A stretch of 42,327 nucleotides of DNA from Sulfolobales archaeon (GCA_038881635.1 JAVZPJ010000010.1:1-42327), one strand, 5' to 3'; counted from the stretch's first letter, positions 5,332-11,548 are shown. Numbers and translations are program-made. The notes: generated by a model not told the origin, from the letters alone.

Positions 5332-6816
5332 TTAGATTTTCCTACTTCTACGCACACTCTCAGATCTGAGAATACTGAAGGGTACAGCCATAATCATTAC
5401 AAGAGCTTGTATTAGGAAGGAGTGTTTTATAGCTAGAGAAAGCTCTCTTATCTCATAACCTATATTAGAATTCGATGCTACATAGCCTAGTGTTATGAGT
5501 TGAGATGCTTCTCTATAGGGTATCAGAGTTGTTATAGCTAGAACAGCTATGTTCAGACTTATCATGAATCCTATGTTGAAGGAGAGAGTTCTTATAGATG
5601 ATGCCACACCTCTTCTCTCAGGAGGTACACAACTCATTATAGATGCTGTGTTTGGAGATACGAAGAGTCCTGTTCCTACGCCGAATAATATCTCTCCAAT
5701 AATCAGATCTCTGAGAGAATTCATGAATGAGAGTATTAGAAGAGCTGCAGAGCTTGTTATCAGTCCTGCTACTGTGACCTTCACGAAACCTATTCTATCT
5801 GAGAGAAATCCTCCTACTACTCCGAATACTAGAAATGCCAGTTCATATGGTGTTATGAGAAGTCCTGTTATAGAGGGGTCGTAGCCCATCACACTCTGAA
5901 GATATACTGCTAGGAGTGTGAGACTTGCTCCGAAGCCTATTGAGTAGAGTAGTTGTGCTATGATTCCTCCTGTGAATTGTTTTATTCTGAAAATCCTTAG
6001 ATCTAGTGCTGGAGAAAATGTTCTAAGCTCGATCACTACGAACATTATGAGGAGAGCTACAGAGATTGTTATGAGGATAGAAGGATACTCTCCATAGCCA
6101 TATCCAAGTAGTGTTAAGCCTACTAGGAGTATAGTGATTGAAGTTGTGAAAGTTAGAAACCCAGTCCAGTCGATTCTCTCTCTTTCAATAGGTTTGTAAA
6201 CATCTTCTAATCTTAGATAGCTCCAGATCAGAGCTACAAGGCCTATGGGAACCTGAATTAGAAAGATCCATCTCCAGCCCATGTAATCTATTATAAAACC
6301 ACTGAGGGTAAGTCCTGCTAAAGCTCCCAATCTCCATGTGACCTGATTAATCCCAAGCCATCTTCCAAGTATCCCTGGTGGTATGTTATCTGTTAGGATA
6401 GTCACCGAGAGATTCATTAGAAAAGCTCCTCCAATTCCTTGAAGTATTCTTGATAGTATGAGTGCTAGTGGTGTAGGTGACAGTCCTGAGAGAAGAGATC
6501 CTATTGTGAATACTAGTATTCCGAGATTGAATAATCTAACTCTTCCAAATAGATCTGCTAGTCTTCCAACAACCAACTGGATGAAGGTGGATCCAAGCAT
6601 GTAGCCCTGTATAATCCACACCATCTCCCAGATGTTAGCGTTAATATCATAAGATATAGTAGGCATTCCAACTACTGCAAGTCTCGCCGCGAATCCCGTA
6701 AGAAAATTCACAAGTGTTGTGACAGATATAACAAGAAGAATCCTACCTCTATCATAGGATAGCATCTGTTCTTCATCTTTTTTCAACGTGCTAAACCAAT
6801 AGAGGTGACAAGCCAT
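5332..6816 (-). CDS. MFS transporter, DHA2 (14-helix drug:H+ antiporter) type
   Basis: A 494-residue, very hydrophobic protein with about 14 predicted membrane helices, matching the DHA2/EmrB-QacA branch of the major facilitator superfamily. The family's motif A is visible as GRLADLFGRVR (about 84-94), preceded by WIIQGYMLGSTFIQLVVG. The helix-5 motif region ILQGIGGAFLMNLSVTIL and the second-half copy GGFLSDRIGFVKV are also recognisable. Family members export drugs or small organic compounds against protons; substrate unknown. A minus-strand TATA-like AGCTTTTAAGAG near 6826-6837 predicts a transcription start slightly inside the ATG at 6816, so the methionine at residue 18 (codon at 6765) may be the true start; the first 17 residues are not conserved-looking. 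No obvious operon partner. Confidence 0.9.
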   Translation of the reverse strand: MACHLYWFSTLKKDEEQMLSYDRGRILLVISVTTLVNFLTGFAARLAVVGMPTISYDINANIWEMVWIIQGYMLGSTFIQLVVGRLADLFGRVRLFNLGILVFTIGSLLSGLSPTPLALILSRILQGIGGAFLMNLSVTILTDNIPPGILGRWLGINQVTWRLGALAGLTLSGFIIDYMGWRWIFLIQVPIGLVALIWSYLRLEDVYKPIERERIDWTGFLTFTTSITILLVGLTLLGYGYGEYPSILITISVALLIMFVVIELRTFSPALDLRIFRIKQFTGGIIAQLLYSIGFGASLTLLAVYLQSVMGYDPSITGLLITPYELAFLVFGVVGGFLSDRIGFVKVTVAGLITSSAALLILSFMNSLRDLIIGEILFGVGTGLFVSPNTASIMSCVPPERRGVASSIRTLSFNIGFMISLNIAVLAITTLIPYREASQLITLGYVASNSNIGYEIRELSLAIKHSFLIQALVMIMAVPFSILRSESVRRSRKI

Positions 6817-6949
6817 ACACTCTTAAAAGCTTTTCACGATCTCTTCTTCTCCAGGTATATTCTTTTAGAGAAAAAGAATCTTCCTCCACAGAATATTATA
6901 TTGATGAGAGAATGAGAAGCTTCTAAACCTCCACCAGAAAGACTGCAGG

Positions 6950-9019
6950 CTAGGATGAGAGACTGATAAAAATCGGGTAGTAGACACAAACACCAGCACT
7001 TCCGGGTAGGGTGCAGAGCTCGAGTTTCAGTGTAAGTGTTGCAGTCTGACCTGTTGTTGTAAAGTATCCGCTGACAGATATACTGTTGCCCGATCCCAGG
7101 TTCAGCTGTATCACGTTCGTAGAGCTCGTGATAAGCGAGCCATTTCTTATAGTAATATTCGTGGAGCTTCCAACACCCTCAAGCCATATGTCTAGGTTTA
7201 GAGTGGTTGGAGCTTGCAAGGATTCTATTATCAGCCTGGCGTAGAGTGTTTGGGATGTGTTTATACTTAGAACTCTCGATGTAGTTGTAAGCTGAGAAGC
7301 TCCGGAGATTTTCAGTGCTAGACTGGCACTGGTCTTGTTAGCTCCAAGGCTCACAGTGATCGGAGCTGTAGAGAGATTATACGTGTCTCCACCTAGAATA
7401 GCATCAGTGGCTGGCACTGTGAGAATACCACAGAGATATGAATCAGGGTATCTGACTACTATCCTCCCATCAAAGCCCGTGCCCACAACAATATCATTCA
7501 CCACACCAAGAGTGAAAGATGATGCTGGAGCTTTTGTCGTGTTAACGAGGCTCCCTAGATTATCCCACACCTCAACACTCATACCTGTGTAGAAGCTTGT
7601 GAAGTATACCGTTCTAGGATCTACAGTGGATATTATGAATTCATCAAAGTATGCTGCTACATTGTCAACCTCAACTCCGATATATGCCGGGGTGAACACG
7701 TTGGCACTGGTTATAGTTGCTGAAACACTGGTAACATAGCTTCCGCTTGCACTATAGAGATATGCTGTTATAGTAATAGTGGTTCCCGCTACCGAGTAGT
7801 TCACTACAATAGTGTACCAGCTAGTCTGACTGTAGCCGGGTATGGAGACGCTAGCATGAATACGCCATCCACTGACTACCACATTATAGCTCCATATCTG
7901 TAGGTATCCAGTTGTGTATATTTCTACCGTGTACATTCTATTTATCCCTGAGTTCATCATTGAAATACCGTACCAGCCTGATCCCGAAACCCATCTTGTC
8001 TTCACCGCCACCCAATTATTACCTGATACAGGAGTGTTGTAGTAATAGTGAGAAGCGACTCCGAGACCTCCATCGTTATCTGTTCCCTGTAACACATTTC
8101 CTTTAGCTCCTGCTACACCGCTAACACTACTCCAAGTTCCTCCGCTACTAGCCCACCCGGTTAGTGGGTAGGTTTCGAAGTCTGTGTATGTGAGTGCTCC
8201 TCTGCTTACTCTATTCAATGCTGTGCAGGTGTAGTTATATGGTGGGGTTTCTAGAGTTGCTGTAGGTGGGCTGGGTGCTATGGTTAGGGTGGCTGGGTTG
8301 TATACGAATACTGATGCTAGTACTGGGAGTACTAGTATTATGAGTGTTGCGAGAGACATCTTATTTCTGAAACTCGTGGATCTAGGCTTTTCAATATTAG
8401 AAGGCTTGTTCTCAGCGATCTTTCTAGATACTATTATGAGAGAGGTGAAAGAGGTTGTAAAGGCTATTATTATGAGTATTAGCTGTATCCAGTTGCTTCC
8501 ACCTATTCTGAGAATGCTTGTCTCTTCTATTCTAACTCCTTCAAAAGCTACAACACCTGCCAGAGTGCTGAAGCTCTTCTCATCTCCTATCAGATTACTG
8601 AATCCTCCTACATCGAGAGAGACAGCTCTATAGATGTATCCATTGAATAATCCGTAGAGCATGATCAAACCCATAGACACTCCATATGATAGTCCTAGAG
8701 CTAGAAGAGGTTTTCTCTTGAATAGAACCGCAGATGCTATTGAGATAACGAGCAGAGATGCTGAAGATAGTGCGAAGATGAGAGAAACATGTCTTATATA
8801 ATCTGTGTGAGGCATTGAAATAGGCTGATTATTATAACTATAATACAGCTTGTAATCCGTGACTGAGTAGTACCCGTAGACATATCCATGGAAGTAGTAT
8901 ATCGGGAGGATCACTAGAAGAAGATAGATTAGAGATGCTATCACACCAATCAAGCTGGATACAAGAATAAGCAGTCGAGCGATTCTATCTAGCCTATCCT
9001 CACCGGTATTCCAATCCAT
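6950..9019 (-). CDS. Membrane-anchored large surface protein with LamG-like and TasA/pilin-like C-terminal domains
   Basis: A 689-residue protein with an unusual layout. Residues about 13-45, 76-100, 103-130 and 177-199 are four membrane helices. A fifth hydrophobic segment (about 222-250) ends in SVFVYNPATLTIAPSPP and reads like a secretion signal in the middle of the chain. Residues about 277-465 form a beta-rich, Gly/Ser/Tyr/Trp-rich jelly-roll domain (YTDFETYPLTGWASSGGTW ... YFDEFIIS) resembling LamG/concanavalin-like folds. A final Thr/Ser-rich beta domain (about 545-689) contains ITVSLGANKTSASLAL, which matches ISVTIGANSTSASITI of the small secreted protein encoded first in the operon. 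Several N-glycosylation sequons are present. Its start overlaps the signal peptidase gene by 31 bases. I infer a base, tip or anchor component of a surface fibre; this is unproven. Confidence 0.8.
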   Translation of the reverse strand: MDWNTGEDRLDRIARLLILVSSLIGVIASLIYLLLVILPIYYFHGYVYGYYSVTDYKLYYSYNNQPISMPHTDYIRHVSLIFALSSASLLVISIASAVLFKRKPLLALGLSYGVSMGLIMLYGLFNGYIYRAVSLDVGGFSNLIGDEKSFSTLAGVVAFEGVRIEETSILRIGGSNWIQLILIIIAFTTSFTSLIIVSRKIAENKPSNIEKPRSTSFRNKMSLATLIILVLPVLASVFVYNPATLTIAPSPPTATLETPPYNYTCTALNRVSRGALTYTDFETYPLTGWASSGGTWSSVSGVAGAKGNVLQGTDNDGGLGVASHYYYNTPVSGNNWVAVKTRWVSGSGWYGISMMNSGINRMYTVEIYTTGYLQIWSYNVVVSGWRIHASVSIPGYSQTSWYTIVVNYSVAGTTITITAYLYSASGSYVTSVSATITSANVFTPAYIGVEVDNVAAYFDEFIISTVDPRTVYFTSFYTGMSVEVWDNLGSLVNTTKAPASSFTLGVVNDIVVGTGFDGRIVVRYPDSYLCGILTVPATDAILGGDTYNLSTAPITVSLGANKTSASLALKISGASQLTTTSRVLSINTSQTLYARLIIESLQAPTTLNLDIWLEGVGSSTNITIRNGSLITSSTNVIQLNLGSGNSISVSGYFTTTGQTATLTLKLELCTLPGSAGVCVYYPIFISLSS

Positions 9020-10080
9020 CTTAGAACACCTTGGTTGAACCAGGATATATAGGCGTACGCGTACTCGGCTTTCTCAGGCAGCTGGATCAAAGCTTGTGAA
9101 AAGCCTTCTATCGTGAGACTCTCATTAATCCAAATCCAAGCCCCGTCTAGATAGTATCTGATAGATATGTTAACCGTTATAGGAAAGCAATTAAGATTTC
9201 TAACAAGAATCACCCCATCTTCCGAGCTTATCTCTGGATCTACTCCGCCTACGAGAAGATCGTATCCTCCCTCAAGCCTGATATTACCATTGAAAACAGC
9301 TCTCACTTCTATATGTAGTGGTTTTCTCTCTTCAAAAGCTTTCTTAAGAAGCATAGGATCTGGTTTTACAATGATCTCTCTATCGAGTATGCTGACTATA
9401 TCCGCTTGTGTAGAGTTTATACCTACACTAGCATTAGCGATCGATAGAGCTGTCGTGTAGCGAATACTCAGAGAACATGAAGCCTGATCCAGGTATACAC
9501 CCGCTAGATCTACAAGAGGGAGTTGTGGGGGGGATAGCGCGATCGCTCCAGGAACTACTATGTATACTGATAGTAGCAGAATTATTGCGAGAGCGAGAGA
9601 GATAACATATGAGAAGCCTATAACAGGTATTCTAGCAATACCATAGAGAGAATAAACAATGACAGCCACTAGCAGGGGTATCCAGATCTCTCTAGGTATC
9701 GACAGGATCACTCTTCCTCTAACCATTGAAAGCTCTATAGGACTGTCAGTCTGATTAGCATTATCTCCTTTAGTGATCAGCATAATTCTATCTCCATTAC
9801 TCATGTTCACTCTCACGAGATCTATGATCCTGTGAACAATACAGTGGCTAGGAGTGACGCAGTATAAAATCACATCTCCAACACTATAATTACCACACGA
9901 GTAAAGAACAAGATCACCTACTCTGAGAGAAGGCTCCATACTATTAGAAGCCACGATAGAGAGACCAACAAGATCAAGATATCCAAATCTAGAGAGAAGA
10001 GTAAGAACAACCAGAGCAAGAAATACGAGAAGAAATATATCGAAGATTAAAAAGAGAATTCTTTTAAAAAGGAAACTCAT
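8989..10080 (-). CDS. Signal peptidase I (S26B, archaeal/SipW-like) with extra C-terminal ectodomain
   Basis: Residues 1-150 are a membrane signal peptidase: helix at about 7-32, nucleophile Ser47 in ASNSMEPSLRVGDLVLY, His83 in CIVHRIIDL in place of the bacterial lysine, and Asp106 (or Asp112) in ITKGDNANQTD. This Ser-His-Asp set is the S26B type used by archaea, the ER and Bacillus SipW. A second helix lies near 133-150. Unlike a plain peptidase (about 150-200 aa) it continues with a third helix (157-178) running into SVYIVVPGAIALSPPQLPL, which resembles the leader motif of the two neighbouring secreted proteins, and then about 180 residues of beta-rich, extracytoplasmic-looking sequence. 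It lies 12 bases after the small secreted protein gene and overlaps the large one by 31 bases, so a dedicated processing role is likely. Confidence 0.87.
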   Translation of the reverse strand: MSFLFKRILFLIFDIFLLVFLALVVLTLLSRFGYLDLVGLSIVASNSMEPSLRVGDLVLYSCGNYSVGDVILYCVTPSHCIVHRIIDLVRVNMSNGDRIMLITKGDNANQTDSPIELSMVRGRVILSIPREIWIPLLVAVIVYSLYGIARIPVIGFSYVISLALAIILLLSVYIVVPGAIALSPPQLPLVDLAGVYLDQASCSLSIRYTTALSIANASVGINSTQADIVSILDREIIVKPDPMLLKKAFEERKPLHIEVRAVFNGNIRLEGGYDLLVGGVDPEISSEDGVILVRNLNCFPITVNISIRYYLDGAWIWINESLTIEGFSQALIQLPEKAEYAYAYISWFNQGVLRWIGIPVRIG

Positions 10081-10092
10081 TAGATGCCCTCG

Positions 10093-10674
10093 CTACCTTC
10101 CAGCACTAGGATTAGCAGGTGGTGTCTCGCTAGATGGTGTGAAAACCAGCTTGGCTGTTACACTATATGATGCTCCATTGATGTTCGTGCCTTCAGGTAT
10201 TTTCACGTAGAAGTCTAACTCCCACTTACTACCAGCTGGTAGAGAGCCTATAGATATAGGCGTGTTAGTCGATGGACTAGTTATATCGATTGCTTTAACT
10301 AGTGTATTTCCGGAGTATACGAAGAGCTTGACCACACTACCTGCAGGTAGATTATTGCTGACGCTGGTGAATACTATGTAGACGTTATATGCCTTACTAT
10401 CATAGTTCACTACTAGGGTCACATTCTTATAGTAATTCTCTTGATATGTGGGATGTATAGTGATAGATGCTGAAGTACTATTAGCACCAATAGTCACACT
10501 TATTGTATTACCCTGTCCTATATCAGGCTGACCAGCATTACTTCCAGGCTGAAAGACTACAGATGGTGGTGTAGGAGTTGCTGTGACTGTGAGTGGGTAG
10601 TAGACGAATACACTTGCGAATACTACTACTGTTAGTGCTAGTATTATTCCGAGTGATATTATCTCTCTTCTCAT
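10093..10674 (-). CDS. Small secreted beta-rich protein, candidate TasA/AbpA-like fibre subunit
   Basis: A 193-residue precursor with a basic N-terminus (MRRE), a hydrophobic core at about 6-26 and the motif SVFVYYPLTVTATPTPP, with a plausible signal peptidase site after VTA (about residue 32). The mature part is Thr/Ser/Asn-rich and strongly beta-predicted (NTISVTIGANSTSASITI, VTLVVNYDSKAYNVYIVF, GSVVKLFVYSGNTLVKAIDI, KWELDFYVKIPEG, YSVTAKLVFTPSS) with no cysteine. TasA of Bacillus and the AbpA bundling pilins of Pyrobaculum are jelly-roll secreted proteins of this size encoded next to a SipW-type signal peptidase; this operon has the same arrangement. The family call is inferred from size, composition and neighbourhood, not from a clear sequence match. 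It is the first gene of the operon, so it is likely the most abundant product. Confidence 0.75.
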   Translation of the reverse strand: MRREIISLGIILALTVVVFASVFVYYPLTVTATPTPPSVVFQPGSNAGQPDIGQGNTISVTIGANSTSASITIHPTYQENYYKNVTLVVNYDSKAYNVYIVFTSVSNNLPAGSVVKLFVYSGNTLVKAIDITSPSTNTPISIGSLPAGSKWELDFYVKIPEGTNINGASYSVTAKLVFTPSSETPPANPSAGR

Positions 10675-10706
10675 TTCTGCATACCTTCTCTATTCTACCA
10701 AAGAGG

Positions 10707-10716
10707 TATTTAAATA
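10707..10716 (-). promoter_or_regulatory. TATA box of the fibre-like operon
   Basis: The palindromic word TATTTAAATA lies 33-42 bases upstream of the ATG at 10674. Transcription on the minus strand would begin near 10685, leaving a leader of about ten bases before the small secreted protein. No similar element is visible inside the operon, in line with co-transcription of the three genes. Confidence 0.6.
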
Positions 10717-10903
10717 ATAGGTCTTTGGCTACTATATGAGATCCTACTATGATTAATGAGATTCTACCAGATCTCGCGGAGGTCTTCGATATGTATGTGG
10801 TCTCAATGTTATCAGGTCTGATTCTAACATCTTCTGATAATGATTCGAATGCTTCTCATGAGGTGTAGGGCTGTGAATTTTAAGCAGGTATAAGCAGGAT
10901 CTC

Positions 10904-11548
10904 ATGGGGTCGCATATGAGTATTCAGGCTCAAGAGAGTATGGATAGTAGAGAGATTGTTAGAAGAGCTTCACTAGCTATGACTAGAACGGTAGTGATAG
11001 TAGTCGTGTATGTAGCTGTTTCTGCTTTGGTGAAATTCGTTGTAGAAGATCTTCTGCTGAAAACATTAGGAGTAGATATAACAGGATATCAAGTGTACAT
11101 CCAGATCCTGCTAGCACTTGCCTTCGGCTATCTTATTGTCAATAGTATTGCATGGTTCTTCTACTGGTCTACAAGATCTAGGTATGGACATCCTACCGCT
11201 GCTGCTATCAGGAATATAATCAGGATCATAGGTATGGGAGCTCTGCTCTCAGCAATAGCCGGCGGTGTAGCTGGCGGTGCTGCCGGAGTTGCTCTAGGCG
11301 GCTTCCTAGGTATTGTCATAGGCTTTGCATCTCAGCAGGTGCTTGGTCAGGCTGTTGCAGGGCTTTTCCTGCTGATAGCAAGACCTTTTAGAGTAGGTGA
11401 TAACGTTATAATAGCTGGTGAAGAAGGTGTTGTTGAAGATATTGCCACCATGTTTACCATAGTTAGGAAAGCTGATGGTGTGACTGTGCTTATACCTAAT
11501 AGCTCGATTATTGGTGGGAAGATATATCTGAAACCTGGAAAACAATAG
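10904..11548 (+). CDS. MscS-type mechanosensitive channel, short form
   Basis: A 214-residue small-conductance mechanosensitive channel homologue. Three membrane helices are seen (about 26-50, 62-84 and 103-140). The pore-lining third helix is the Gly/Ala-rich ALLSAIAGGVAGGAAGVALG followed by the signature GFLGIVIGFASQQVLGQAVAGLFLLIARPFRVGDNV, and then the start of the beta domain (EEGVVEDIATMFTIVRKADGVTVLIPNSSIIGG). It ends soon after that beta domain, so the alpha-beta C-terminal cage of E. coli MscS is absent; short versions are common in archaea. Its job is to release solutes on hypo-osmotic stress. It starts at ATG 10904 or at ATG 10916, diverges from the fibre-like operon, and is followed by a T7 tract at 11563-11569. 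Confidence 0.92.
   Translation: MGSHMSIQAQESMDSREIVRRASLAMTRTVVIVVVYVAVSALVKFVVEDLLLKTLGVDITGYQVYIQILLALAFGYLIVNSIAWFFYWSTRSRYGHPTAAAIRNIIRIIGMGALLSAIAGGVAGGAAGVALGGFLGIVIGFASQQVLGQAVAGLFLLIARPFRVGDNVIIAGEEGVVEDIATMFTIVRKADGVTVLIPNSSIIGGKIYLKPGKQ

Follow-up and report, generated by a model that had tools for sequence, protein, structure and literature searches.

The operon and its main pilin

The window analysed here is a 42,327-nucleotide stretch of DNA from a heat-loving Sulfolobales archaeon (GCA_038881635.1, JAVZPJ010000010.1:1-42327), and the subject of this work is a three-gene operon which, according to homology and structural models, is a real and conserved pilus operon of the archaeal superfamily that includes the Sulfolobus thread and the bundling pilin AbpA, in a variant carrying a gene fusion; fibre formation and the roles of the individual proteins are predicted. 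The three open reading frames (ORFs) lie on the minus strand, as do all the features of the window mentioned below: S (10093-10674, 193 aa), the putative major donor-strand pilin; P (8989-10080, 363 aa), an apparently dedicated S26B signal peptidase with a C-terminal beta domain; and B (6950-9019, 689 aa), a membrane protein, BN, fused to a minor and presumably capping subunit, T. S and P are separated by 12 bp (10081-10092) and P and B overlap by 31 bp (8989-9019), so the layout given in a preliminary description of this DNA, including the absence of cysteine from the small protein S, is borne out by the sequence. A TATA-like box, TATTTAAATA, can be read at 10707-10716, 33-42 bp upstream of the S start.

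S begins with a signal peptide (residues 1-20, 10615-10674), for which cleavage at VFA|SVFVYYP is predicted from the family alignment with its invariant A20; the A20|S21 context and the SVFVYYP motif are conserved across the S family, and cleavage after A20 would be analogous to that of the thread subunit (PMC9715654). The segment that follows (residues 21-37, 10564-10614, SVFVYYPLTVTATPTPP) is located outside any strand in the S model and is the putative N-terminal donor strand, or tail.

Used as a single query, S gave no Pfam family and no PDB match beyond chance, and B likewise gave only chance matches in the PDB. S homologues are present in 29 of 59 genomes of the same order, and a profile of 26 of them matched the thread subunit 7pnb from the signal peptide to the C-terminus with an E value of 9.3e-11. 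The same profile reached an AbpA-type gene in another genome (G296, E 3.3e-10), the product of which matched 7ueg, the bundling pilin of Pyrobaculum calidifontis, with an E value of 1.5e-21. The predicted structure of S (predicted local distance difference test score, pLDDT, 90) has 7pnb as its best fold (E 1.3e-8, TM-scores 0.64/0.67) and 7ueg as the second best (E 6.7e-6, TM-scores 0.60/0.64), these being the sole matches with a TM-score of at least 0.6 among the 50 best, with chaperone-usher pilins and Pyrodictium cannulae ranked lower as distant folds. By both profile and model, S is a member of the archaeal donor-strand pilin superfamily.

The locus had been likened in the preliminary description to a TasA/SipW or an archaeal bundling-pilus locus, an interpretation that is partly supported: the bundling-pilus half holds in sequence, fold and gene co-occurrence, while the TasA half found no fold or Pfam match, TasA not appearing among the 50 best folds of the S model. 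The suggestion of a surface fibre is supported by the sequence homology, the fold and the conserved co-occurrence of genes, with the fibre itself being predicted. The nearest relative is the Sulfolobus thread, which had not been named.

Protein B and the minor subunit T

The N-terminal module of B, BN (residues 1-203, 8411-9019), consists of four transmembrane helices (residues 12-37, 70-99, 104-143 and 176-203) and two small extracellular beta loops. It is followed by an internal signal helix (residues 215-235, 8315-8377) matching the signal peptide of S (42% over S residues 5-42, E 4.4e-4), and then, after the predicted cleavage site VLA|SVFVYNPATLTIAP, by a putative internal donor strand (residues 236-249, 8273-8314). 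The rest of T comprises a ConA/LamG-like lectin-type domain (residues ~260-489, 7553-8242) and an S-like C-terminal domain (residues 547-689, 6953-7381) containing Cys669 and Cys678, which ends with a strand resembling a donor strand (residues 676-689, 6953-6994, GVCVYYPIFISLSS). In the model of B (pLDDT 92) the fourth transmembrane helix, the signal helix, a disordered segment (residues 236-246, SVFVYNP), the ConA-like domain and the S-like domain follow one another in this order. The loop charges indicate that the N-terminus of B and the linker leading to the signal helix are both inside, so that the secreted part of B would be correctly oriented.

The modelled lectin-type domain matched CBM66 (TMt 0.70) as well as legume lectins and the lectin domain of galactocerebrosidase, and weak matches to CFA/I and Fim pilin folds were found in the model searches. 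According to the model the domain has a ConA/LamG-like jelly-roll fold, in line with the LamG-like domain guessed earlier, and may bind sugars. The GANxTSAS stretch noticed in both proteins occurs as GANSTSAS in S and as GANKTSAS in B, within homologous domains: profiles of the S core and the C-terminal domain of B align over 119 columns with a p-value of 6e-10 (reversed controls 0.05-0.09), so that the shared stretch reflects homology rather than chance.

B had been regarded as a new kind of large polytopic partner. It is, however, not a single family: residues ~222-688 and 12-178 match separate ORFs in relatives, about 30 of which have two genes in place of B, for a four-helix BN and a secreted T. 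What had been observed at the locus is real, with one correction, that B is a fusion of two proteins encoded separately in most relatives. Most often the genes are arranged as S-T-P-BN (more than 20 loci); the order is S-P-BN-T, with T still separate, at five loci and S-P-(BN::T) at 11-12, the window included. A tree of 49 P proteins places the 11 fused-type rows together, with one split locus (L032) among them, and the fused and split labels require 2 changes compared with 10 in shuffles, which fits a BN::T fusion that arose about once and was split once later, in L032. One genome (G044, L039) codes for a 922-aa B-type protein (6730-9498) with a large insert within the ConA-like domain, and its S gene is split into two ORFs (10585-11138).

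T proteins possess a signal peptide and an N-terminal donor strand like those of S, usually a ConA/LamG-like domain, and an S-like domain which in the profile alignment carries one extra C-terminal strand beyond the end of the S core. This strand reads GVCVYYPIF, compared with SVFVYYPLT in the donor strand. When a weight matrix built solely from the N-terminal donor strands of S proteins was scanned over 41 T proteins, the C-terminal strand ranked first or second in 38 of them, usually alongside the N-terminal donor strand; T being one family, the motif represents one homologous feature and not 41 independent ones. The window site (676-689) scores 13.6 bits, a value attained in the last residues by a fraction of 5e-5 of the shuffled sequences. 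None of the 10,896 10-mers of the other window ORFs attains it, and elsewhere 18 of 334,509 do. The same scan found no second donor-like site outside the N-terminus of S proteins. The cysteine pair (669/678 in the window) is conserved in 90% of 20 aligned T proteins. From these sequence features we infer that the groove of T is plugged by its own C-terminal strand and that T caps the fibre: with the groove so filled, T could donate a strand but could not accept one. This agrees with the published reading of Saci_0405, which was inferred to lack an acceptor site and suggested as a possible cap (PMC9715654).

Peptidase P, its PC domain and the distribution of the cassette

P consists of a catalytic domain (residues 1-145, 9646-10080) and a C-terminal beta domain, PC (residues 169-363, 8992-9576). 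It scores 66.5 against the archaeal signal peptidase I model TIGR02228, exceeding the cut-off of 51.85, and 45 bits (E 8.5e-12) against the SipW model NF046067, below the cut-off of 190. Ser47, His83 and Asp106/Asp112 are conserved in 89-94% of 47 relatives, which upholds the earlier assignment to S26B. As the window genome holds a second, shorter signal peptidase-like match, P looks dedicated to the operon. Of 47 P proteins, 87% retain two cysteines near His83, Cys74 and Cys80 (9841-9861), which is unusual for a signal peptidase. A scan of viral contigs with P found nothing, and none of S, T, BN and PC has a Pfam family.

A PC-type domain is also found without the peptidase, in a protein family (f4) encoded between S and BN, which matches PC with a p-value of 1.3e-12 in profile comparison. 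Among 349 genomes of the phylum, PC is present in 36, BN in 37 and both in 35 (Fisher p 1e-44); the co-occurrence of PC with S has a p-value of 4e-23, and the PC and BN genes adjoin each other and S. PC and BN, which accompany each other almost without exception, are candidate assembly factors.

The neighbourhoods surveyed in relatives have conserved cassettes of S, P, BN and T. The relatives include Ignisphaera, Thermogladius, Zestosphaera, Acidilobaceae, Fervidicoccus and Desulfurococcales metagenome-assembled genomes (MAGs), a Nezhaarchaeota MAG which carries the BN::T fusion too, and further MAGs labelled Nitrososphaeria and Geothermarchaeota, with placement errors of MAGs being possible. 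The system is thereby extended to genomes of Desulfurococcales type, Acidilobaceae, Fervidicoccus, Zestosphaera and Nezhaarchaeota.

Two loci contain a single 400-aa protein (L081, 5216-6421; L150, 2857-4059) with four transmembrane helices followed by a PC-like domain (p-value 1.6e-5); its gene neighbours an S gene on the other strand, and the protein represents a BN-PC fusion without the peptidase. A third locus (L151, 3061-4616, genome G182) codes for a signal peptidase whose C-terminal part has diverged and for a membrane protein of 181 aa, next to an S-type gene on the other strand; this is perhaps a far-diverged P-BN pair.

Proposed assembly and comparison with known fibres

The structures of archaeal donor-strand fibres, namely threads and bundling pili, were solved in 2022; the authors of the thread work found no chaperone or usher and regarded the neighbouring genes as inconclusive (PMC9715654, PMC11607397). 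The operon described here supplies candidates for assembly factors (PC and BN), a dedicated peptidase and a putative end subunit filled by its own strand.

The thread of Sulfolobus acidocaldarius (Saci_0406, PDB 7pnb/8rzl, cluster saci_0404-0408) has a subunit homologous to S over its full length, including the signal peptide and the tail, with the same fold and with a minor subunit gene adjoining. Sulfolobaceae thread loci have a beta protein with one transmembrane helix and a four-helix protein in matching places (L082, L116, L164-L166). In comparisons of larger profiles with reversed-sequence controls, PC matched Saci_0407-like proteins weakly (p-value 1.3e-3, reversed controls 0.44 and 0.006), which is suggestive of homology, and BN gave a p-value of 0.05 against Saci_0408-like proteins, which does not establish homology; Vulcanisaeta-like loci join the Sulfolobaceae proteins and not the core set. 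The window differs from the thread locus in its apparently dedicated peptidase fused to PC, in the ConA-like domain and donor-like C-terminal strand of T, in the BN::T fusion, and in the first residue of the mature pilin, which is Ser and not Asp. In one genome with a 7pnb-like thread subunit (G042, L117, 8652-9483), the gene in the Saci_0407 position is represented by two ORFs in different frames, while that of G032 (L116, 9071-9901) is intact, so a frameshift or an assembly error in G042, adjacent to an active thread gene, is possible.

AbpA bundling pilins (7ueg, the second-best fold of S) are encoded beside a larger protein that shares the N-terminal strand (L208, L209, L225), and no PC or BN was detected at the AbpA-type loci examined. 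Chaperone-usher pili (FimA/FimH, CfaA/B/E) likewise follow a donor-strand logic and combine a lectin-type and a pilin domain in one minor subunit. The minor subunits differ in that FimH receives a strand from the following subunit, while T seems to occupy its groove with a strand of its own and to act as a donor through its N-terminal strand. No chaperone or usher genes were found among the conserved neighbours of the operon.

Starting from what was computed, namely the homologies and folds, the conserved cassette, the fusion and the extra strand with its motif, we suggest, with a probability of roughly 0.7, that the product of the operon is an adhesive pilus of the thread/AbpA superfamily held together by donor-strand complementation. 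S and T would be exported via Sec, and P would cut directly before SVFVYYP, freeing the N-terminal donor strands; in the window it would also cut inside B, freeing T from the four-helix BN. Each S would then insert its N-terminal strand into the groove left open in the S next to it, allowing growth without a chaperone or usher. T, having an S-type N-terminal strand, would close its groove with the last strand of its own C-terminus, secured by the Cys-Cys loop, and could join S at one end only; it would thus start or end the fibre, most likely as a ConA/LamG-like adhesin at the distal tip. PC, tethered in the membrane part of P, and BN may together make up the place in the membrane at which subunits are passed on. 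That a distinct archaeal pilus pathway exists, with such a membrane site of its own and an end subunit made of a pilin domain carrying its own donor strand, and that in the window lineage both derive from one fused product split by the operon's peptidase, is put forward more tentatively, as a possibility with somewhat less than even chances; if true, each assembly site in the window lineage would be born with exactly one fibre-starting subunit. The C-terminal strand of T also provides a rule for fibre polarity which is testable by single deletions.

Several points weigh against the formation of such a pilus. The filament, the cleavage and the binding are all read from sequences and models, and Sulfolobus makes threads without a fused peptidase. 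In the thread, Asp24 is the mature N-terminal Asp that makes the proposed intermolecular isopeptide bond (PMC9715654); the S family has Ser, Gly, Ala or Thr at that position, so judging by the alignment this bond would not be conserved. The C-terminal motif of T counts once, and beta strands of the YYP type can converge; the plugging of the groove is deduced from this motif and the end of the domain, the strand pairing in the model being putative. Moreover, some loci have no T beside P-BN, and some S or S-T loci have no detectable P/BN, so T and PC/BN are not universal.

The fusion might instead stay uncut, with T anchored by a fifth helix as a cell-proximal base donating its strand to the first S. 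This would agree with the model, in which the donor strand of fused proteins directly follows a transmembrane helix, and with polarity hypothesis 1 for Saci_0405, that of a cell-proximal cap (PMC9715654). It is nevertheless unlikely, as the internal helix still has the S-type signal peptide and surroundings of the cleavage site (VLA|SVFVYNP), T is in most relatives encoded separately and secreted by means of a signal peptide of its own, and a lectin-like domain would be more useful at the distal end. Less probable again is that S and T are non-polymerising proteins secreted to the surface or the cell wall, of S-layer or glycan-binding type, which resemble pilins in fold only. Members with P/BN are indeed known from genes alone, and the ConA-like domain could serve nutrient binding; set against this is the full-length sequence homology to two solved filament subunits, which includes the tail, that is, the donor strand.

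The least probable alternative, slightly behind the preceding one, is that archaea acquired a TasA system and that S and T correspond to the TasA/TapA matrix proteins of Bacillus with SipW. Bacillus tapA-sipW-tasA does likewise combine a secreted beta fibre protein with a dedicated S26B peptidase, and P matches the SipW model to the extent given above. Yet the archaeal signal peptidase model is the better match for P, the best folds of S are the thread and AbpA, no TasA/camelysin family was matched in Pfam, and T is not TapA-like by any test in this analysis. To our knowledge, no counterpart of BN or PC exists in tapA-sipW-tasA. TasA itself, which forms a donor-strand fibre (PMC9674648), was recovered by neither the fold search nor the family search.

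More distant loci were also encountered. Two of them (L191 and L192, 5947-8863), in MAGs labelled Nitrososphaeria/Geothermarchaeota, have S-T with a peptidase that lacks PC and, after it, an ORF of 259 aa. Distant S-type genes (families f17, f26 and f44; E 1e-5 to 1e-10) are present at L210-L212, L215, L216 and L227, most of these loci having a T-like neighbour and none a detected P, PC or BN; at L210, L215 and L216 a membrane protein of 174-226 aa adjoins the S-type gene.

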